From assembly GCF_030503875.2 (NCBI RefSeq), contig NZ_CP129968.2:3436001-3500000 (forward strand): a stretch of 64,000 bases of DNA, in the 5' to 3' direction. Source of the DNA: Marivirga arenosa (GTDB lineage: Bacteria; Bacteroidota; Bacteroidia; Cytophagales; Cyclobacteriaceae). A program made the translations under genes and the position numbers. Below, piece after piece: positions 14,074 through 20,153 of this stretch. The notes beneath the pieces were generated by a model. It did not search any database. It saw only the letters and a program-made list of their open reading frames with translations, and was not told where the DNA came from. Positions within the stretch are counted from its first letter, which is position 1, and every line of letters starts with the position of its first letter.

Positions 14074-14727
14074 ATGTTAGATAACGGAATTAAGCTTCTC
14101 CAACTTTATCAAAATTTCCTAAAAAAGAATCCAAATGCTAGTCTTAGTGACTTTGGGAAAAGTCTAGCATCATCTGATAAAAGTGAAATTCATGAGGATG
14201 AGATTGAAGAAATGAGTAAAAAAATGCCATTTCCATTTCCCGCTAAATCAGCAGATGAATATATAGGTTGGGCTTGGGGAAGATTAATGAATTTCAGTCA
14301 AATATGGGAGAAAAAAGCATTTGCTAATCAACCCATTCATAATTTAACTGAATTTGGAGTAGCTCTTTATGTATTAAGCCATGAAAACTGTAGTAAATCA
14401 GAAGTTGCAAATCATTCCTTACAAGAAAAGACCACCATTTTTGAAACTATAAAAAGATTGGTCAGAAATGGTATTATTAATGAGAAGGAGAATCTTAAAG
14501 ATAAAAGAAGCAAACAACTATCCATATCTAAAAAAGGACAAATCGCTTGTTTTAGTGTTATGGGCACTGCAAATGATATCAGTAAACACCTGGTAGGAAA
14601 TTTAAGTAAAGAGGAGAAAATCAATTTATTTGATTACCTTATCAAATTAGATGAATACCATCAATACTGTTATGATAATTATAAAGATGAAAACTGGGAG
14701 AAACTGAAAGAGGAGATGATAGGCTAG
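14074..14727 (+). CDS. MarR-family winged-helix transcriptional regulator
   Basis: The C-terminal 140 residues form a MarR-like winged helix: the recognition region SKSEVANHSLQEKTTIFETIKRLVRNGIINEKENLKDKRSKQLSISKKGQ (given here as a description of residues about 109-160) has the helix-turn-helix and the basic D-KRSKQ wing. The first about 60 residues are an acidic helical extension beyond a minimal MarR protein. It lies divergent from the TonB receptor and its stop overlaps the crtZ stop by 4 bases in convergent orientation. It could control either neighbour, but no operator can be assigned from sequence. The effector is unknown. Confidence 0.8.
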   Translation: MLDNGIKLLQLYQNFLKKNPNASLSDFGKSLASSDKSEIHEDEIEEMSKKMPFPFPAKSADEYIGWAWGRLMNFSQIWEKKAFANQPIHNLTEFGVALYVLSHENCSKSEVANHSLQEKTTIFETIKRLVRNGIINEKENLKDKRSKQLSISKKGQIACFSVMGTANDISKHLVGNLSKEEKINLFDYLIKLDEYHQYCYDNYKDENWEKLKEEMIG

Positions 14728-15209
14728 GCTTTTGCTCTACTTTTATTTTCTTTTACCTCATACTTCTTAGGTGCATATAGAAACCCAAAAGCTTCAGCAC
14801 CTTCCTTTGTATGGACTTCATGATGTATATAGTGTGCACGAATCATTCTTCTTAAATATGAATTTTTCGCTTTAAACTTAATTTTAACTCTTCTATGTAC
14901 TAATATATCATGAAATAAAACATAGAAAACCCCATAGCATGCTACTCCTATTCCAACAAAAAGCAACCATCTAACTTCTGGAAACTCAATACCTGCCATT
15001 ATTAAAGAAGCTGAGGGAATACTAAAAACCACTGCAAATAAATCATTTCTTTCTAAAGCATGGTTATGCACTTTATGATGAGATCTATGCCAAGTCCATA
15101 AAAATCCATGCATTATATATTTGTGGGTAAACCACGCTACCCCCTCCATGAAAAGAAATGTACCTACAACTAGAAAAGCGTAGAATAAAATGGTTAATAC
15201 TTCTGACAT
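14724..15209 (-). CDS. crtZ: Beta-carotene 3-hydroxylase (CrtZ, fatty-acid hydroxylase superfamily)
   Basis: This di-iron membrane enzyme adds 3-hydroxyl groups to beta-ionone rings, giving zeaxanthin-type carotenoids. All His clusters are present: His29/His34 (HKYIMH), His41/44/45 (HRSHH), His100/His105 (HDILVH) and His126/129/130 (HYIHH). Hydrophobic segments lie at about 5-25 and 58-97. At 161 residues it matches bacterial CrtZ rather than longer sterol desaturases. It is the last gene of the carotenoid operon, 17 bases after ispH. No lycopene cyclase gene accompanies it, so the ring substrate must be made by an enzyme encoded elsewhere. Confidence 0.93.
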   Translation of the reverse strand: MSEVLTILFYAFLVVGTFLFMEGVAWFTHKYIMHGFLWTWHRSHHKVHNHALERNDLFAVVFSIPSASLIMAGIEFPEVRWLLFVGIGVACYGVFYVLFHDILVHRRVKIKFKAKNSYLRRMIRAHYIHHEVHTKEGAEAFGFLYAPKKYEVKENKSRAKA

Positions 15210-15226
15210 ATTTCTACAATAACACT

Positions 15227-16072
15227 TTAATATTTTAATAATTCATCTCTCACTTGCTCCATTAACCACATTGGAGTAGAAGTAGCTCCACAGATTCCTA
15301 CAGAGTCGTTATTTGAAAACCATTCTTTGTTTAGTTCAGATATATTGGAGATGAAATAAGTATTTGGATTTTTATCTTTACAAACATTATAAAGCACCTT
15401 ACCATTAGAGGATTTAGTGCCTGAAACAAAAATAACCTTGTCAAATTCTCCAGCAAAAGAACGTAATTCTTTATCTCTGTTAGATACCTGACGACAGATA
15501 GTATCATTTGCATTTACACTAATTCCTGCTTCAGTGAGTATCTCTTTAATTTTGTAAAAGTTATCCGTACTCTTTGTAGTTTGGCTATATAAAGTTAATT
15601 CTTTAGGTAAGGTCGCAATATCCAGTTCATTTATATCCTGAAAAACAACTGCTTCCTGATTTGTTTGTCCTAAAAGGCCTTCCACTTCAGCATGCCCATG
15701 TTTACCATAAATATAGATCTGCTCTTTCTTATCAAAGGAATTCTTAATTCTATTTTGTAGTTTTAAAACAACAGGACAAGAGGCGTCAACTAAAGTTAGA
15801 TTATTCTCAATTGCTAATTTATAGGTTGAAGGAGGCTCTCCGTGTGCGCGGATTAATACCTTTTCATCTTTTAAATTTTTTAAAACCTCTCTATCAATTA
15901 TTCTAAGTCCTTTTGCTTCTAATCTTTTTACTTCTTCATCATTATGAACAATATCACCTAAACAATATAGGTAGCCCTGTTCTTCAAGCATATCTTCTGC
16001 CATTTCAATGGCATAAACTACTCCAAAGCAAAAGCCTGAACTATTATCGATTTTTACATTTAGGTTCATCAT
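15227..16072 (-). CDS. ispH: 4-hydroxy-3-methylbut-2-enyl diphosphate reductase
   Basis: IspH is the [4Fe-4S] enzyme that makes IPP and DMAPP in the last MEP step. The three cluster cysteines are present: Cys15 (SGFCFGV), Cys99 (DASCPV) and the one in NDTICRQVSNR. His residues in RAHGEP and GKHGHAEV are the usual substrate-binding ones. I chose the ATG at 16072 (the next codon is also ATG) over an in-frame TTG at 16078. It sits between crtB (8 bases upstream) and crtZ (17 bases downstream), so this housekeeping enzyme is transcribed with the carotenoid genes, which should raise precursor supply when pigments are made. Confidence 0.95.
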   Translation of the reverse strand: MMNLNVKIDNSSGFCFGVVYAIEMAEDMLEEQGYLYCLGDIVHNDEEVKRLEAKGLRIIDREVLKNLKDEKVLIRAHGEPPSTYKLAIENNLTLVDASCPVVLKLQNRIKNSFDKKEQIYIYGKHGHAEVEGLLGQTNQEAVVFQDINELDIATLPKELTLYSQTTKSTDNFYKIKEILTEAGISVNANDTICRQVSNRDKELRSFAGEFDKVIFVSGTKSSNGKVLYNVCKDKNPNTYFISNISELNKEWFSNNDSVGICGATSTPMWLMEQVRDELLKY

Positions 16073-16080
16073 GGGCAAAT

Positions 16081-16923
16081 TTAAAGAGTGTTCAACTGAT
16101 GTTTTACATAACTACCCAATAACAGAAATAGTTTTTTTGAATCTGGAACTCTTACTCTTTGTTCCATTATTTTATTTGGTGAAAACCGCTTAATCTTATC
16201 AAATAATTTCAAATAATAAGTATAGGCTAAATAAACACCCCATCTGGCACCTCTTGGTAATTCAACTATACCTTTGTAGGCATGATCGAAATCCTTTTGA
16301 ATATCTGCTTCTATTTTTTCTTTGTGAGATACGGAGAAATCATTAAAATCTACTCCTGGAAAATAAACTCTACCTCTTTCATAATAATCTGATTTAATAT
16401 CTCTAAGGAAGTTTACCTTTTGAAAAGCAGACCCTAGGCTTTTTGCGAAGGGTAATAATCTTTGATATTCCTTTTCATCACCATCGCAAAAAACTTTTAA
16501 ACACATTAAGCCCACTACTTCAGCAGAACCATAAATGTATTCCTCATAAGATTCCTGCTGATAATCAATATCTAGCAAATCCATTTCCATACTATGTAGG
16601 AAAGCTTCAATTAAAGCATGATCAATTTGGTATTGATTCACTACCATTTGAAAGCAATGTAAAACAGGATTTAAACTAATTTCATCTTTAATAGCAGTAT
16701 AAGTATTACTTTTAAACTCTCTTAATAAGGACGCTTTATCCTTTTCATGAAAAGTATCTACGATTTCATCTGCATATCTCACGAAGCCATAAATTGCATA
16801 AATAGGATAATGAAATTTCTTATCTAGGCTTTTAATTCCTAAACTGAATGAAGTGCTATATCGATTAGTAATAAGCTTACTACACTCAAAAGTGGTCTGA
16901 TTAAAAAGTTCTTTAGCATCCAT
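16081..16923 (-). CDS. crtB: Phytoene synthase
   Basis: CrtB condenses two geranylgeranyl diphosphates into phytoene, the first committed carotenoid step. Both aspartate-rich motifs are visible: DEIVD at 52-56 and the DIKSDYYERGR stretch near 180. The remaining sequence is all-alpha, of the squalene/phytoene synthase fold, and 280 residues is a normal bacterial length. It lies 12 bases after crtI. A squalene-synthase-like alternative is disfavoured by the crtI neighbour. Confidence 0.95.
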   Translation of the reverse strand: MDAKELFNQTTFECSKLITNRYSTSFSLGIKSLDKKFHYPIYAIYGFVRYADEIVDTFHEKDKASLLREFKSNTYTAIKDEISLNPVLHCFQMVVNQYQIDHALIEAFLHSMEMDLLDIDYQQESYEEYIYGSAEVVGLMCLKVFCDGDEKEYQRLLPFAKSLGSAFQKVNFLRDIKSDYYERGRVYFPGVDFNDFSVSHKEKIEADIQKDFDHAYKGIVELPRGARWGVYLAYTYYLKLFDKIKRFSPNKIMEQRVRVPDSKKLFLLLGSYVKHQLNTL

Positions 16924-16935
16924 AAGCTTTTATTT

Positions 16936-18411
16936 CTAACTTATATCTTTCATTACTTCTTTTCCAACCACTTGCCCTGAAATCAATGAAGGTGGTACTC
17001 CTGGGCCAGGAACTGTGAGTTGACCAGCGTAATAAAAGTTTTTAAGCTTTTTATTCTTTAATGATGGTTTTAAAATAGCCGTTTGTTTTAAGGTATTAGC
17101 TAAGCCATAAGCATTTCCTTTAAACGAATGATATTCATTAATAAAATCCTTATGGGCAAAACTTCTCTTATAAATTACATGATCTTTTATGTTTTCTCCT
17201 AATATTTTCTCCATTCTATCTAAAATTAACGAAAAATATTTTTCCCTAATCTCCTCAGTATCCTCAAGTCCAGGGGCTACTGGCATTAAGATAAAGATAT
17301 TCTCCTTTCCCTCTGGAGCTACCGAATCATCAGTTTTTGAAGGAGCACTCACATAAAATAAAGGCTCGTCAGGCCATTTAGGATTTTCATATATTTGTTT
17401 GGCATGAGGACCAAAATCATGATCAAAAAATAAATTATGATGAACCAATCCTTCAACTTTTTTATCTAATCCTAAGTAAAAAATCAGTGAAGAAGGAGCC
17501 ATTGTTCTATTTTCCCAATAATTTGAAGTATAGTTTCTGAACTCCATTGGCAAAATCGACTGATCGGTGTGCTCATAATCAGCTGAAGAAACTACAATAT
17601 CAGCATCATAGGAATCCGTTTTAGTAATAACCTTTTTAGCTTTATTGCCTTCGCATTCAACCGAAACTACTTCTTGCTCTGTAATAAATTTAACCCCTTT
17701 CTCTTCCGCTAGTTTTACCATCCCCTCTACTATTTTATGCATCCCTCCATCTGGATACCAAGTACCCAAACTAATGTCCGCATAATTCATTAAACTGTAT
17801 AAAGCGGGGGTGTTTTCAGGCAATGCTCCAAGAAATAAAATTGGGAATTCCATAAGCCTAATAATGCGCTCATTTTTAAAGAACTTTCTAACGTGGCTGT
17901 AAATGGATGAAAAAATGTCCATTCTTACCATATCAAAAAGTAATTTGAGACTCATAAACTCTGTTAATGATCTGCCAGGTTTATATACCAGGTCATTAAT
18001 TCCTTTCTCATATTTATATGCAGCTTGTTTTAAGAATTCATCCAAATTAGGACCACTTCCGGGCTCAAGCCCCTCTAGCATGTTTTTGAATTCTTGAAGA
18101 TTTGCAGGAACCTTTAAAACATCATTTTTCCCAAAAACAACATGATAAGAAGGATCGAGTCTTTTTAAATTATAATAGTCCGAAACATTTTTACCAAAGG
18201 TTTGGAAATACTTTTCAAAAACATCGGGCATCCAATACCAACTTGGCCCCATATCAAAAGTAAAGCCCTCAGCTTTAAACTGACGGGCTCTTCCTCCTAG
18301 GTCTTTATTCTTTTCAAGAACTGTTACATCTAATCCTTTATCGGCTAGGTATGTTGCAGTAGATAAACCTGCAAAACCTGCTCCAATAACTACTACTTTA
18401 TTTTTTGCCAT
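16936..18411 (-). CDS. crtI: Phytoene desaturase
   Basis: This FAD-dependent enzyme converts phytoene to lycopene (or a related polyene). It has the N-terminal dinucleotide motif VIGAGFAGLSTATYLADKG (8-26) and the ERR-like RARQF segment. At the C-terminus is the carotenoid-desaturase signature FYYAGQLTVPGPGVPPSLISG, described here in two parts: FYYAGQ near 459 and VPGPGVPPS near 468. The 491-residue length is typical. It is the second gene of the operon, 11 bases downstream of the ECF sigma gene and 12 bases upstream of crtB. The sequence does not show whether it performs three or four desaturations. Confidence 0.95.
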   Translation of the reverse strand: MAKNKVVVIGAGFAGLSTATYLADKGLDVTVLEKNKDLGGRARQFKAEGFTFDMGPSWYWMPDVFEKYFQTFGKNVSDYYNLKRLDPSYHVVFGKNDVLKVPANLQEFKNMLEGLEPGSGPNLDEFLKQAAYKYEKGINDLVYKPGRSLTEFMSLKLLFDMVRMDIFSSIYSHVRKFFKNERIIRLMEFPILFLGALPENTPALYSLMNYADISLGTWYPDGGMHKIVEGMVKLAEEKGVKFITEQEVVSVECEGNKAKKVITKTDSYDADIVVSSADYEHTDQSILPMEFRNYTSNYWENRTMAPSSLIFYLGLDKKVEGLVHHNLFFDHDFGPHAKQIYENPKWPDEPLFYVSAPSKTDDSVAPEGKENIFILMPVAPGLEDTEEIREKYFSLILDRMEKILGENIKDHVIYKRSFAHKDFINEYHSFKGNAYGLANTLKQTAILKPSLKNKKLKNFYYAGQLTVPGPGVPPSLISGQVVGKEVMKDIS

Positions 18412-18422
18412 TAAATTTTTAA

Positions 18423-18926
18423 TTAAGCATAAATCTTTAGAGCACTTTTCAACTCTTTTCTGGCAATATGTATTCTATTTTTTACAGTTCCAATTGGTAT
18501 CTCTAATTTTTCAGCTATCTCATGATATTTAAATCCTCTGAAATGCATCATGAAAGGTTCTTTATAAACATCATCCAATTTTGCAATCTGTTTCACAATA
18601 TCAGCCATCGCAAAAGAACCATAAGCTGAGTTTTGAGCAATATTTTCTGTTGAATTGATAAAGTGTAAATTTTCTGTAGTATCAATGAAAGTTTTTCTTC
18701 TTACCATTCTTTGATAATTGGTAATAAAAGTATTTTTCATGATAGTAAACAACCAAGCTTTAAGATTTGTGCCTTCCGAAAATTTTTCACGGTTAGAAAA
18801 TGCTTTCAGCACTGTTTCTTGAATCAAATCGTTTGCCTGCTCCATATCTTTCGTCAACCTCAATGCAAACGGTTTCATAGATTTTGTCATATTGTTAATC
18901 GCGTAACCAAATTCTAATGCTGTCAT
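18423..18926 (-). CDS. ECF-type RNA polymerase sigma factor heading the carotenoid operon
   Basis: At 167 residues it contains only sigma regions 2 and 4. Region 2 spans about 22-80 (ANDLIQETVLKAF and NLKAWLFTIMKNTF), and region 4 about 115-160 (YHEIAEKLEIPIGTVKNRIH) is the helix-turn-helix. No anti-sigma factor gene is adjacent, so control is probably transcriptional. It is the promoter-proximal gene of ECF-crtI-crtB-ispH-crtZ. In front of it lie a TTG-N20-TAGATTTG promoter and a set of inverted repeats, and the CarH-like repressor gene is immediately upstream. By analogy with CarQ of Myxococcus it may extend a light response to unlinked genes; that analogy is inference. Confidence 0.92.
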   Translation of the reverse strand: MTALEFGYAINNMTKSMKPFALRLTKDMEQANDLIQETVLKAFSNREKFSEGTNLKAWLFTIMKNTFITNYQRMVRRKTFIDTTENLHFINSTENIAQNSAYGSFAMADIVKQIAKLDDVYKEPFMMHFRGFKYHEIAEKLEIPIGTVKNRIHIARKELKSALKIYA

Positions 18927-18928
18927 GA

Positions 18929-18940
18929 TTGTTTAAGTTT
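18929..18940 (-). promoter_or_regulatory. Leader 12-mer AAACTTAAACAA two bases before the ECF sigma start
   Basis: On the minus strand AAACTTAAACAA is followed by TC and then ATG. The identical 12-mer occurs at the same offset before the TonB-dependent receptor (13985-13996, followed by AA and ATG). It contains the same TTAAACAA core as the operator repeats upstream. Confidence 0.4.
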
Positions 18941-18944
18941 GATG

Positions 18945-18976
18945 TTGTTTAACAAATCTACTTTTTAATTAAACAA
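18945..18976. promoter_or_regulatory. Proximal inverted repeat TTGTTTAA-N16-TTAAACAA (candidate operator)
   Basis: The half-sites TTGTTTAA (18945-18952) and TTAAACAA (18969-18976) are perfect inverse complements separated by 16 bases. The -7 box TAGATTTG of the ECF-crt promoter lies between the half-sites, and the -33 box is 5 bases beyond the distal one. With the CarH-like MerR gene next door, this is a plausible operator for that protein; the assignment is inference. Confidence 0.6.
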
Positions 18977-18983
18977 CTTCCAA
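18953..18983 (-). promoter_or_regulatory. Predicted sigma-A promoter of the ECF-crt operon
   Basis: On the minus strand a TTG (18983-18981, within TTTG) is followed by 20 bases and TAGATTTG (18960-18953). This is a full match to the Bacteroidota TTG / TAnnTTTG promoter with normal spacing. The -7 box lies about 27 bases upstream of the ECF ATG. The promoter is embedded in the proximal inverted repeat at 18945-18976, as expected for an operator that blocks or remodels polymerase binding. Confidence 0.65.
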
Positions 18984-18988
18984 ATTTT

Positions 18989-19020
18989 TTGTTTAGTTTT
19001 TTAATTATTCTATTAAACAA
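18989..19020. promoter_or_regulatory. Distal inverted repeat TTGTTTAG-N16-TTAAACAA (candidate operator)
   Basis: It has the same architecture and the same 16-base spacer as the proximal repeat, with one mismatch (final A to G in the left half). It starts 44 bases from the proximal copy, about four helical turns, so proteins bound at both would lie on roughly the same DNA face. A further lone TTGTTTAA is at 19119-19126. Confidence 0.55.
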
Positions 19021-19168
19021 AGTAGCGATAATCGAAAGCATATATTTTAAAAAGGCTATTTAGAACAGCTTAAGGCACGTTTTTATATGTACATACATAG
19101 ATATATTAAAAATCATTATTGTTTAACTAAAAAATTTTTATGCTAAAGTTTTATTAAGGTAAATAAAA

Positions 19169-19190
19169 AAAGCCGCTTAATTGCGGCTTT
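19169..19190 (-). terminator. Intrinsic terminator of the CarH-like regulator gene
   Basis: The stem AAAGCCGC / GCGGCTTT closes a 6-base loop, and on the minus strand it is followed by TTTTTTATTT. It begins 28 bases beyond the regulator stop codon and separates it from the ECF-crt promoter region. Confidence 0.85.
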
Positions 19191-19217: not shown

Positions 19218-20153
19218 CTATTCGTATTTCATATTTTTATTTGCTTCAGGTCTTTGGGGTGATAATTCAATATCTTTTTCATTAATAAAATCAATTAAAT
19301 CTTCCATTTTCATAATGAACTCAACATTTTTCTTTCTTTTGATGTCTTGCCCAATCACCTGAAAACCACCTACAAATAAAGTGGCGCTATTAAATAGTTC
19401 AGCTATCTCATCAATATATCCTTGTACCTCTGACTTTCTTGGGGCTGCAGTACAAATGGTTAAGACATAATCAGGAGTATGGATATCCTTTACAGAATAA
19501 AGATCAGATTTAGGAAGATTTTGACCTAAGTAAATCACCTTAAATTTCCTTGCTCTTAGTAGGTAAGAAGCAAACATTAAAGACAACTCGTGTAACTCTC
19601 CTTCTGGAAGAAACAGTAACCACTTCCCTTTTGATTCACTTTCAGTCACATATTGTCCATCAATAGCAACTGTCATTTTCTGACGAATTAAATTAGATAT
19701 AAAATGCTCCTGAGCTGGAAGAATACTTCCAGTTTGCCATAGCATCCCTATTTTTGCTAAAAATGGATAAATAACATTCAGCATGGTTCGTTCAAAACCA
19801 TACTTTAATATATTGTTATTTAAAATGTTTTCAAATCTATCTTCATCCATATCAATCATACTCAATGTTAATGAGTTTATTTGATCTGGAAATCTTAGAT
19901 TCGTTTCTGCAATTTTAAGAACCTCCTTATTAAGCTCATCTTCACTCATCTTAGCAATTTTGGATATTTTATATCCATTTTCTTTGAGTGTAGAGATGTT
20001 CAGTACTAATTTCAAGTCCTCATCGCTATAATATCTGATGTTTGTATCAGTCCGCTTGGGTTCAATGAAATTATACCTCTGCTCCCATATCCTTAGTGTA
20101 TGGGCTTTAATTCCTGATAAGTGTTCTAAATCTTTAATTGAATAACTGCTCAC
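19218..20153 (-). CDS. CarH/LitR-like MerR regulator with cobalamin-binding domain
   Basis: Residues 1-70 are a MerR DNA-binding domain (HTLRIWEQRYNFIEPKRT). Residues about 90-165 are the four-helix cap with the Wx9EH motif (Trp139, Glu149-His150), which in CarH shields adenosylcobalamin. Residues about 175-290 are a Rossmann-like B12 domain with Glu186-x-His188, the lower-ligand motif ExHxxG, here ExHxxS because position 191 is Ser. The family represses carotenoid genes in the dark and releases DNA when light breaks the Co-C bond. The ECF-crt operon is directly downstream. The start is GTG at 20153, supported by AAAGGAGG at 20160-20167; no in-frame ATG fits the family N-terminus. Confidence 0.9.
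   Translation of the reverse strand: MSSYSIKDLEHLSGIKAHTLRIWEQRYNFIEPKRTDTNIRYYSDEDLKLVLNISTLKENGYKISKIAKMSEDELNKEVLKIAETNLRFPDQINSLTLSMIDMDEDRFENILNNNILKYGFERTMLNVIYPFLAKIGMLWQTGSILPAQEHFISNLIRQKMTVAIDGQYVTESESKGKWLLFLPEGELHELSLMFASYLLRARKFKVIYLGQNLPKSDLYSVKDIHTPDYVLTICTAAPRKSEVQGYIDEIAELFNSATLFVGGFQVIGQDIKRKKNVEFIMKMEDLIDFINEKDIELSPQRPEANKNMKYE

Follow-up and report, generated by a model that had tools for sequence, protein, structure and literature searches.

The operators closest to the array described here are those of CarH, a MerR-type, B12-binding repressor. In Thermus thermophilus, Bacillus megaterium and the myxobacteria they are large, lie over the -35 and -10 elements of carotenoid promoters and carry a TnnACA core, and most of them consist of three to four tandem 11-bp direct repeats (available excerpts of PMC8156234 and PMC9304148). 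The Myxococcus CarA operator was at first described as a pair of inverted repeats covering the -35 element and the stretch upstream of it, and in that respect it resembles our array; however, CarA has been argued to read direct repeats and is a B12-independent regulator (excerpt of PMC9304148). Spaced half-site pairs are also found with the class II LitR proteins of Pseudomonas (PplR1 and PmlR2), although their consensus is TGTACA-N12-TGTACA, light is sensed by a separate LOV protein, and neither a rhodopsin nor a FAS1 target was seen in the available part of the report (PMC9758184). The flavobacterial proteorhodopsin and carotenoid genes, as in Dokdonia and Sediminicola, belong to the same gene families as those treated below. 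In a proteorhodopsin-bearing flavobacterium a MerR gene stands in front of crtI, with no operator proposal seen in the accessible portion of that paper (PMC4732338), and the regulation of proteorhodopsin in flavobacteria has been called open (excerpt of PMC3587595). Among the matches listed from the open-licence literature, no CarH or MerR operator linked to proteorhodopsin was seen.

In the window, that is, the whole stretch of 64,000 nucleotides analysed, a CarH-like MerR gene lies upstream of an ECF sigma-crtI-crtB-ispH operon on the same strand, and a terminator-like hairpin sits 3' of the MerR gene, between this gene and the operon promoter (Table 1). The gene at 14724..15209 is presumed from context to encode a CrtZ-like product. 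The array overlaps the promoter predicted for the carotenoid operon from its consensus, a position typical of CarH-type operators. We consider it highly probable that the array is a double operator of the neighbouring CarH-like MerR protein, which would act as an AdoCbl-dependent repressor in the dark, be released by light and control a small light regulon including proteorhodopsin.

Table 1. Features of the array and of the genes around it (window positions).
Feature	Position	Strand	Basis or remark
Probable beta-carotene hydroxylase (CrtZ-like)	14724..15209	-	no Pfam match
LytB/IspH	15227..16078	-	domain score
CrtB-type phytoene synthase (SQS_PSY)	16081..16923	-	domain score; named by context
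CrtI-type phytoene desaturase (amine oxidoreductase family)	16936..18411	-	domain score; named by context
ECF-type sigma factor, first gene of carotenoid operon	18423..18926	-	domain score
Lone TTGTTTAA copy close to sigma-gene start	18929..18936	.	out of register across genus
Putative proximal operator TTGTTTAA-N16-TTAAACAA	18945..18976	-	covers -7 box; at least one N16/N17 site in 28/30 orthologous promoters
-7 box TAGATTTG	18953..18960	-	inside proximal repeat, touching one half-site
12-bp inter-operator linker	18977..18988	-	contains -33 element; conserved length
-33 element TTTG	18981..18984 (18984-18981 read on minus strand)	-	in linker, 20 bp from -7 box
Putative distal operator TTGTTTAG-N16-TTAAACAA (minus-strand reading TTGTTTAA-N16-CTAAACAA)	18989..19020	-	upstream of -33 box
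Lone TTGTTTAA copy, upstream	19119..19126	.	best N16 partner only 12/16; nearby TTAAAC-like letters in relatives, out of register
Terminator-like hairpin AGCCGC...GCGGCT + T run	19165..19188	-	by eye
CarH-like MerR regulator (MerR helix-turn-helix + B12-binding domains, W-x9-EH, E-x-H)	19218..20153	-	domains, motifs

All six half-sites of the sequence-only reading were recovered, TTGTTTAA at 18929, 18945 and 19119, TTAAACAA at 18969 and 19013, and TTGTTTAG at 18989, and the two promoter boxes that it had placed are both present on the minus strand. The -7 box borders directly on the downstream half-site of the proximal operator (18952-18945, minus strand), which lies close to the transcription start expected from the consensus. 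The single 8-mer is not enriched across the whole window (12 found vs 10.1 expected), whereas the perfect pair occurs once in the window and in none of 100 window shuffles. The unusual feature of the array is the clustering together with the exact pair spacing, not the number of 8-mers. The lone copies, counted in that reading as members of the array, show no fixed register in the genus alignments and are rejected as operator parts. A second palindrome, ATGTA-NN-TACAT, lies at 19087-19098, upstream of the distal operator, and occurs in the genus loci L005-L012 as well; counted by eye in an alignment of nine genus-level promoters, it is exact in four and carries one change in another four.

The half-site contains the CarH core TnnACA in the form TAAACA. 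The classical tandem 11-bp repeats nnnnTnnACAn are absent from these sites, which are inverted pairs, and the class II LitR operator TGTACA-N12-TGTACA is absent from the sequence of the array. Instead of tandem repeats we find diverging half-sites at N16 or N17, often doubled over a 12-bp linker. Tandem direct repeats concealed next to the pairs were considered and rejected, there being a weak excess at +10 only, with a same-direction copy (at least 6/8) in 6/44 and 7/33 sites.

The 4.05-Mb genome of a Marivirga relative was searched for the pair with the reversed pattern as a control. The pattern TTGTTTAR-N16-YTAAACAA occurs at four places, two of which are the carotenoid promoter, and the reversed control at none; with 7-mer half-sites and a free spacer (N4-N34), four of ten matches fall at N18, equivalent to N16 between 8-mers, while the reversed control gives two over all spacings. 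Of the two remaining sites, one stands 44 bp upstream of a gene of the bacteriorhodopsin family, behind which comes a Blh-type beta-carotene dioxygenase gene; the other is 64 bp ahead of a fasciclin (FAS1) gene. The genome-wide search suggested as a check thus found the pair rare and positioned before genes. Near-matches with up to 2 mismatches (24 vs 14 in the control) are mostly noise. The form GTGTTTAA-N16-TTAAACAC precedes an SDR gene in the same genome. Half-sites at N27 (16 plus 11) precede a GAF-domain gene (L148, G000:C1:1211644-1211686) and may represent a longer-spaced operator. Across 59 genomes ranging from genus to order, for which we infer the family and order names, 91 exact sites stand against 6 of the reversed pattern (summed by hand), and in at least 23 of the 44 site-bearing genomes the distance from a site to the carH-like gene is 1 kb or less (counted by hand).

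The same arrangement recurs in the orthologous sigma-gene promoters, read in the best 30 of 58 matching genomes. Inverted repeats at N16 or N17 matching at least 13/16 within 200 bp are present at least once in 28/30 promoters and twice in 24/30; the linker of these double sites, with the -33 box inside, measures 12 bp in 22/24 and 11 bp in 2/24, and it remains 12 where one site is N17 rather than N16. At 14/16 or better within 300 bp, N16 is found in 27/30 sigma promoters, the runner-up spacings being N5 (11) and N17 (10). In the genus alignments the half-sites and the -33 and -7 boxes are largely kept and the spacer letters drift. The predicted conservation of half-sites and of the N16/N12 spacings over drifting spacers is therefore borne out in homologous promoters, but the half-site spacing described as unusually wide is the rule among these relatives. 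A secondary peak of half-site pairs is seen at N26, in 8/23 rhodopsin and 8/30 sigma promoters at 14/16 or better (L005-L034, L064-L086).

A logo of 95 sites gives a nearly invariant TGTTTAA/TTAAACA, an invariance that stems in part from the selection of these sites at 14/16 or better, and T- and A-rich flanks, which were not selected. A perfect TANNTTTG box (TAnnTTTG), measured from the start of the left half-site, has an offset of 15 or 16 in 20/44 ECF sites, in 12/33 rhodopsin sites of a second family and in 0/18 genus-to-order rhodopsin sites, and an offset of -5, with TTTG overlapping the left half-site, in 4/44, 4/33 and 4/18, respectively; a perfect box is missing from many operator sites. 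In either register the -7 region would lie beneath a bound protein, which argues for repression.

The rhodopsin of the 4.05-Mb genome shows Asp, Thr and Glu in the alignment at what we take to be the proton-pump positions, and on account of these residues it is called a proteorhodopsin; among the contigs scanned, its closest named relative is that of Marivirga arenosa, 99% identical. A rhodopsin was found in 23/59 genomes from genus to order, 22 of which could be assessed for an N16 site within 300 bp (the gene of G011 lies at a contig end, and its row is still part of the spacing counts of 23). Eighteen have a site at 14/16 or better, 20 at 13 or better and 11 at 15 or better, whereas no other spacing between 0 and 40 exceeds 8 at the 14 or 11 at the 13 threshold; a site at 13 or better is missing from two, G017 with the regulator and G043 without it. 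In the second family (f25), which we infer to be Flavobacteriaceae and which was sampled as the best 30 plus 16 further of 52 matches, the best 30 give 23, 26 and 17 sites at N16 for the thresholds 14, 13 and 15, and the best other spacing gives 8 at 14 and 17 at 13. The 16 further, less similar rhodopsins are weaker at N16 (5 at 14 or better, 10 at 13 or better). The background at 13 or better is high, other spacings reaching up to 11/23 and 17/30. In 80 named rhodopsin loci (Hymenobacter, Belliella, Algoriphagus, Cecembia, Flexithrix, Pedobacter and many metagenome bins, four with less than 350 bp upstream) a site at 14 or better is found at N16 in 25, at N17 in 14 and at either spacing in 37, other spacings giving at most 7; over half of this broader set is thus without a clear site. 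In genome g61 a rhodopsin gene and a blh-like gene are divergent, with two operators between them that start 45 bp apart (L251:1500-1576).

The genes behind the motif were listed for 83 distinct exact sites, comprising most of the 91 places in the 59 genomes and a hand-picked few of 171 from a survey of 395 genomes. At 60/83 a gene of the listed target kinds starts within 260 bp, a descriptive figure with no control, since the target families were chosen from the same sites. They are ECF sigma (18 sites), FAS1 (11), rhodopsin (7, two with a divergent blh), CrtI (5), TetR_C_23 (5, one with DUF1731), SDR (3) and a protein without a Pfam match that we presume to be SRPBCC-like (1), with two sites each for flavin reductase, DASH cryptochrome, BLUF, CHRD and the CarH-like gene itself. 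Five of the 23 remaining sites lie 27-29 bp before a gene pair that we take to be queD-folE-like. The sites directly before the CarH-like gene (2/83) belong to two relatives; autoregulation of the MerR gene in the 4.05-Mb genome was considered unconvincing, the best N16 match upstream of 20153 reaching only 13/16. The Pseudomonas class II LitR regulon, in the excerpt available, also has photolyase/cryptochrome, SDR and folE targets (PMC9758184).

The regulator shows the MerR DNA-binding domain and the B12-binding four-helix and Rossmann domains of the CarH/LitR family, MerR_1 and PF02607 scoring above the Pfam cut-off and the Rossmann domain PF02310 below it (23.1 bits, cut-off 32.1). Its best structure matches are 3whp (E 7e-21) and CarH 5c8d (E 8e-21). 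The NCBIfam CarH equivalog NF052513 is its best match, at 105.8 bits against a cut-off of 400, and for this reason we name the protein CarH-like and not CarH. A cobalamin adenosyltransferase-family gene (PF01923) is present in the genome. The W-x9-EH adenosyl pocket and the lower-ligand His (E-x-H) are kept in 30/30 loci (best 30 of 54 matching genomes), and in these same loci the equivalent of TtCarH His132 is absent, the position being Gln in 27/30 and Met, Leu or Thr in the others.

In TtCarH, His132 is the upper ligand after photolysis, and in one study the H132A variant stays largely tetrameric in light, an earlier study cited in the same paper having reported its disassembly (excerpt of PMC10442372). 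The replacement of this His, together with the persistence of the H132A tetramer, suggests that light release here may take another route than in the T. thermophilus model. It is also the reason to weigh a protein that binds the array without a light response of its own, as a B12 sensor, a constitutive (CarA-like) repressor or a repressor relieved by a partner, in the way that class II LitR answers light through its LOV partner (excerpt of PMC9758184). This is unlikely, though the most probable of the alternatives: the loss of the His in 30/30 loci and the tetramer seen in one study speak for it, but the adenosyl pocket and the lower-ligand His are retained in all of them, several targets are light genes, and other cobalamin photoreceptors do without that His, one of them having Gln there (excerpt of PMC11796333). 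Since the position varies in other members of the family, we do not treat His132 as defining.

The link between the motif and the CarH-like protein was followed across the phylum in 395 genomes, E<1e-40 being the limit for a full-length CarH-like match and at most five CarH candidates being scored per genome. At class level, such a full-length protein is present in 70 genomes, which together have 150 exact sites vs 22 in the control, and the motif occurs in 52/70; the 28 genomes without the protein have 4 sites vs 3, and the motif occurs in 4/28 (Fisher 6e-8; by genus 26/39 vs 3/14, p 0.005). The exact motif is absent from 18/70 class-level genomes with the regulator gene. In the best-sampled genus the motif is present in 21/21 genomes with the gene (82 sites vs 17 in the control) and in 0/2 without it. 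Phylum members outside the class (n=297, including at least 2 with an E<1e-40 CarH-like match among the matches listed) show no excess, with 17 sites vs 19 in the control, counted by hand. By this co-occurrence, the proposal that the array is the operator of the CarH-like gene gains support.

At the rhodopsin promoters, N16 sites were compared between genomes with and without the regulator gene, leaving aside G552, which has a partial CarH-like match. Sites are present in 49/56 vs 3/8 at 13 or better (p 0.004) and in 41/56 vs 2/8 at 14 or better (p 0.012), two of the eight gene-lacking genomes, those with a strong site, being only 73% and 81% complete; at 15 or better there is no significant link (26/56 vs 2/8, p 0.45). 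Thus 7 of the 56 rhodopsins with the regulator gene in the genome have no N16 site at 13 or better, and 15 have none at 14 or better. All eight genomes of family f24, by guess Chryseobacterium-like, are without a full-length CarH-like match and without the motif. Light induction of carotenoids in the absence of a car/lit operon has been described for a Chryseobacterium (excerpt of PMC7064467), and together these observations suggest that another light regulator may exist there.

The co-occurrence also bears on the idea that the site serves a different regulator acting on this light regulon, for instance a TetR_C_23 or CRP-type protein, with the CarH-like gene as a mere neighbour. TetR proteins bind inverted repeats, and TetR_C_23 genes adjoin 5/83 sites. 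The published CarH sites differ in architecture from those found here, yet their TnnACA core fits the half-site (excerpts of PMC8156234 and PMC9304148), and the motif tracks the CarH-like gene, even within one genus, lying no more than 1 kb from it in at least 23/44 genomes; we hold this explanation to be improbable. That AT-rich chance repeats, or an RNA or DNA hairpin with no protein partner, account for the array is extremely improbable: single 8-mers are about as frequent in the window as chance predicts and the region is AT-rich, which may suffice for the two lone copies, but for the N16 pairs a chance origin is rejected on the reversed-pattern and alternative-spacing controls, and the comparative sequence data, with a spacing-specific recurrence and a conserved double site, refute this reading.

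Thus, we favour control by the CarH-like protein and propose a mechanism in which binding, dark repression, the dependence on AdoCbl and light and the oligomeric state are predicted. In the dark, the AdoCbl-bound protein would occupy the two N16 inverted repeats. Their starts are 44 bp apart, in agreement with the separation of about four helical turns claimed for the two copies, and two complexes would consequently share one face of the DNA. The bound protein would cover the -7 box with the proximal site and flank the -33 box with the distal site, blocking the sigma-A RNA polymerase. In light, the breaking of the Co-C bond would cause the complex to leave the DNA and allow transcription of the sigma/carotenoid operon. 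The same protein would control its regulon through this site, present either singly or twice, acting on proteorhodopsin-blh and FAS1 in the 4.05-Mb genome, and in relatives also on DASH cryptochrome, BLUF, queD-folE (pterin synthesis), flavin reductase, SDR, TetR_C_23 and carH itself.

The analysis suggests inverted repeats as a second operator architecture available to CarH-like proteins, and its simple pattern predicts further light-gene members, namely FAS1, queD-folE and TetR_C_23. For proteorhodopsin, the shared predicted operator points to a regulator, to a signal (green/blue light) and to a cofactor dependence (B12). Many such bacteria must scavenge B12. In Cytophagales, Flavobacteriaceae and some other Bacteroidota, a B12 photoreceptor probably switches on proteorhodopsin phototrophy, in that a CarH-like repressor with its own code, TTGTTTAA-N16/17-TTAAACAA, would command together the opsin, the synthesis of the retinal precursor, DASH cryptochrome, pterin, BLUF and FAS1 genes. 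The use of rhodopsin would then depend on light as well as on B12 supply.
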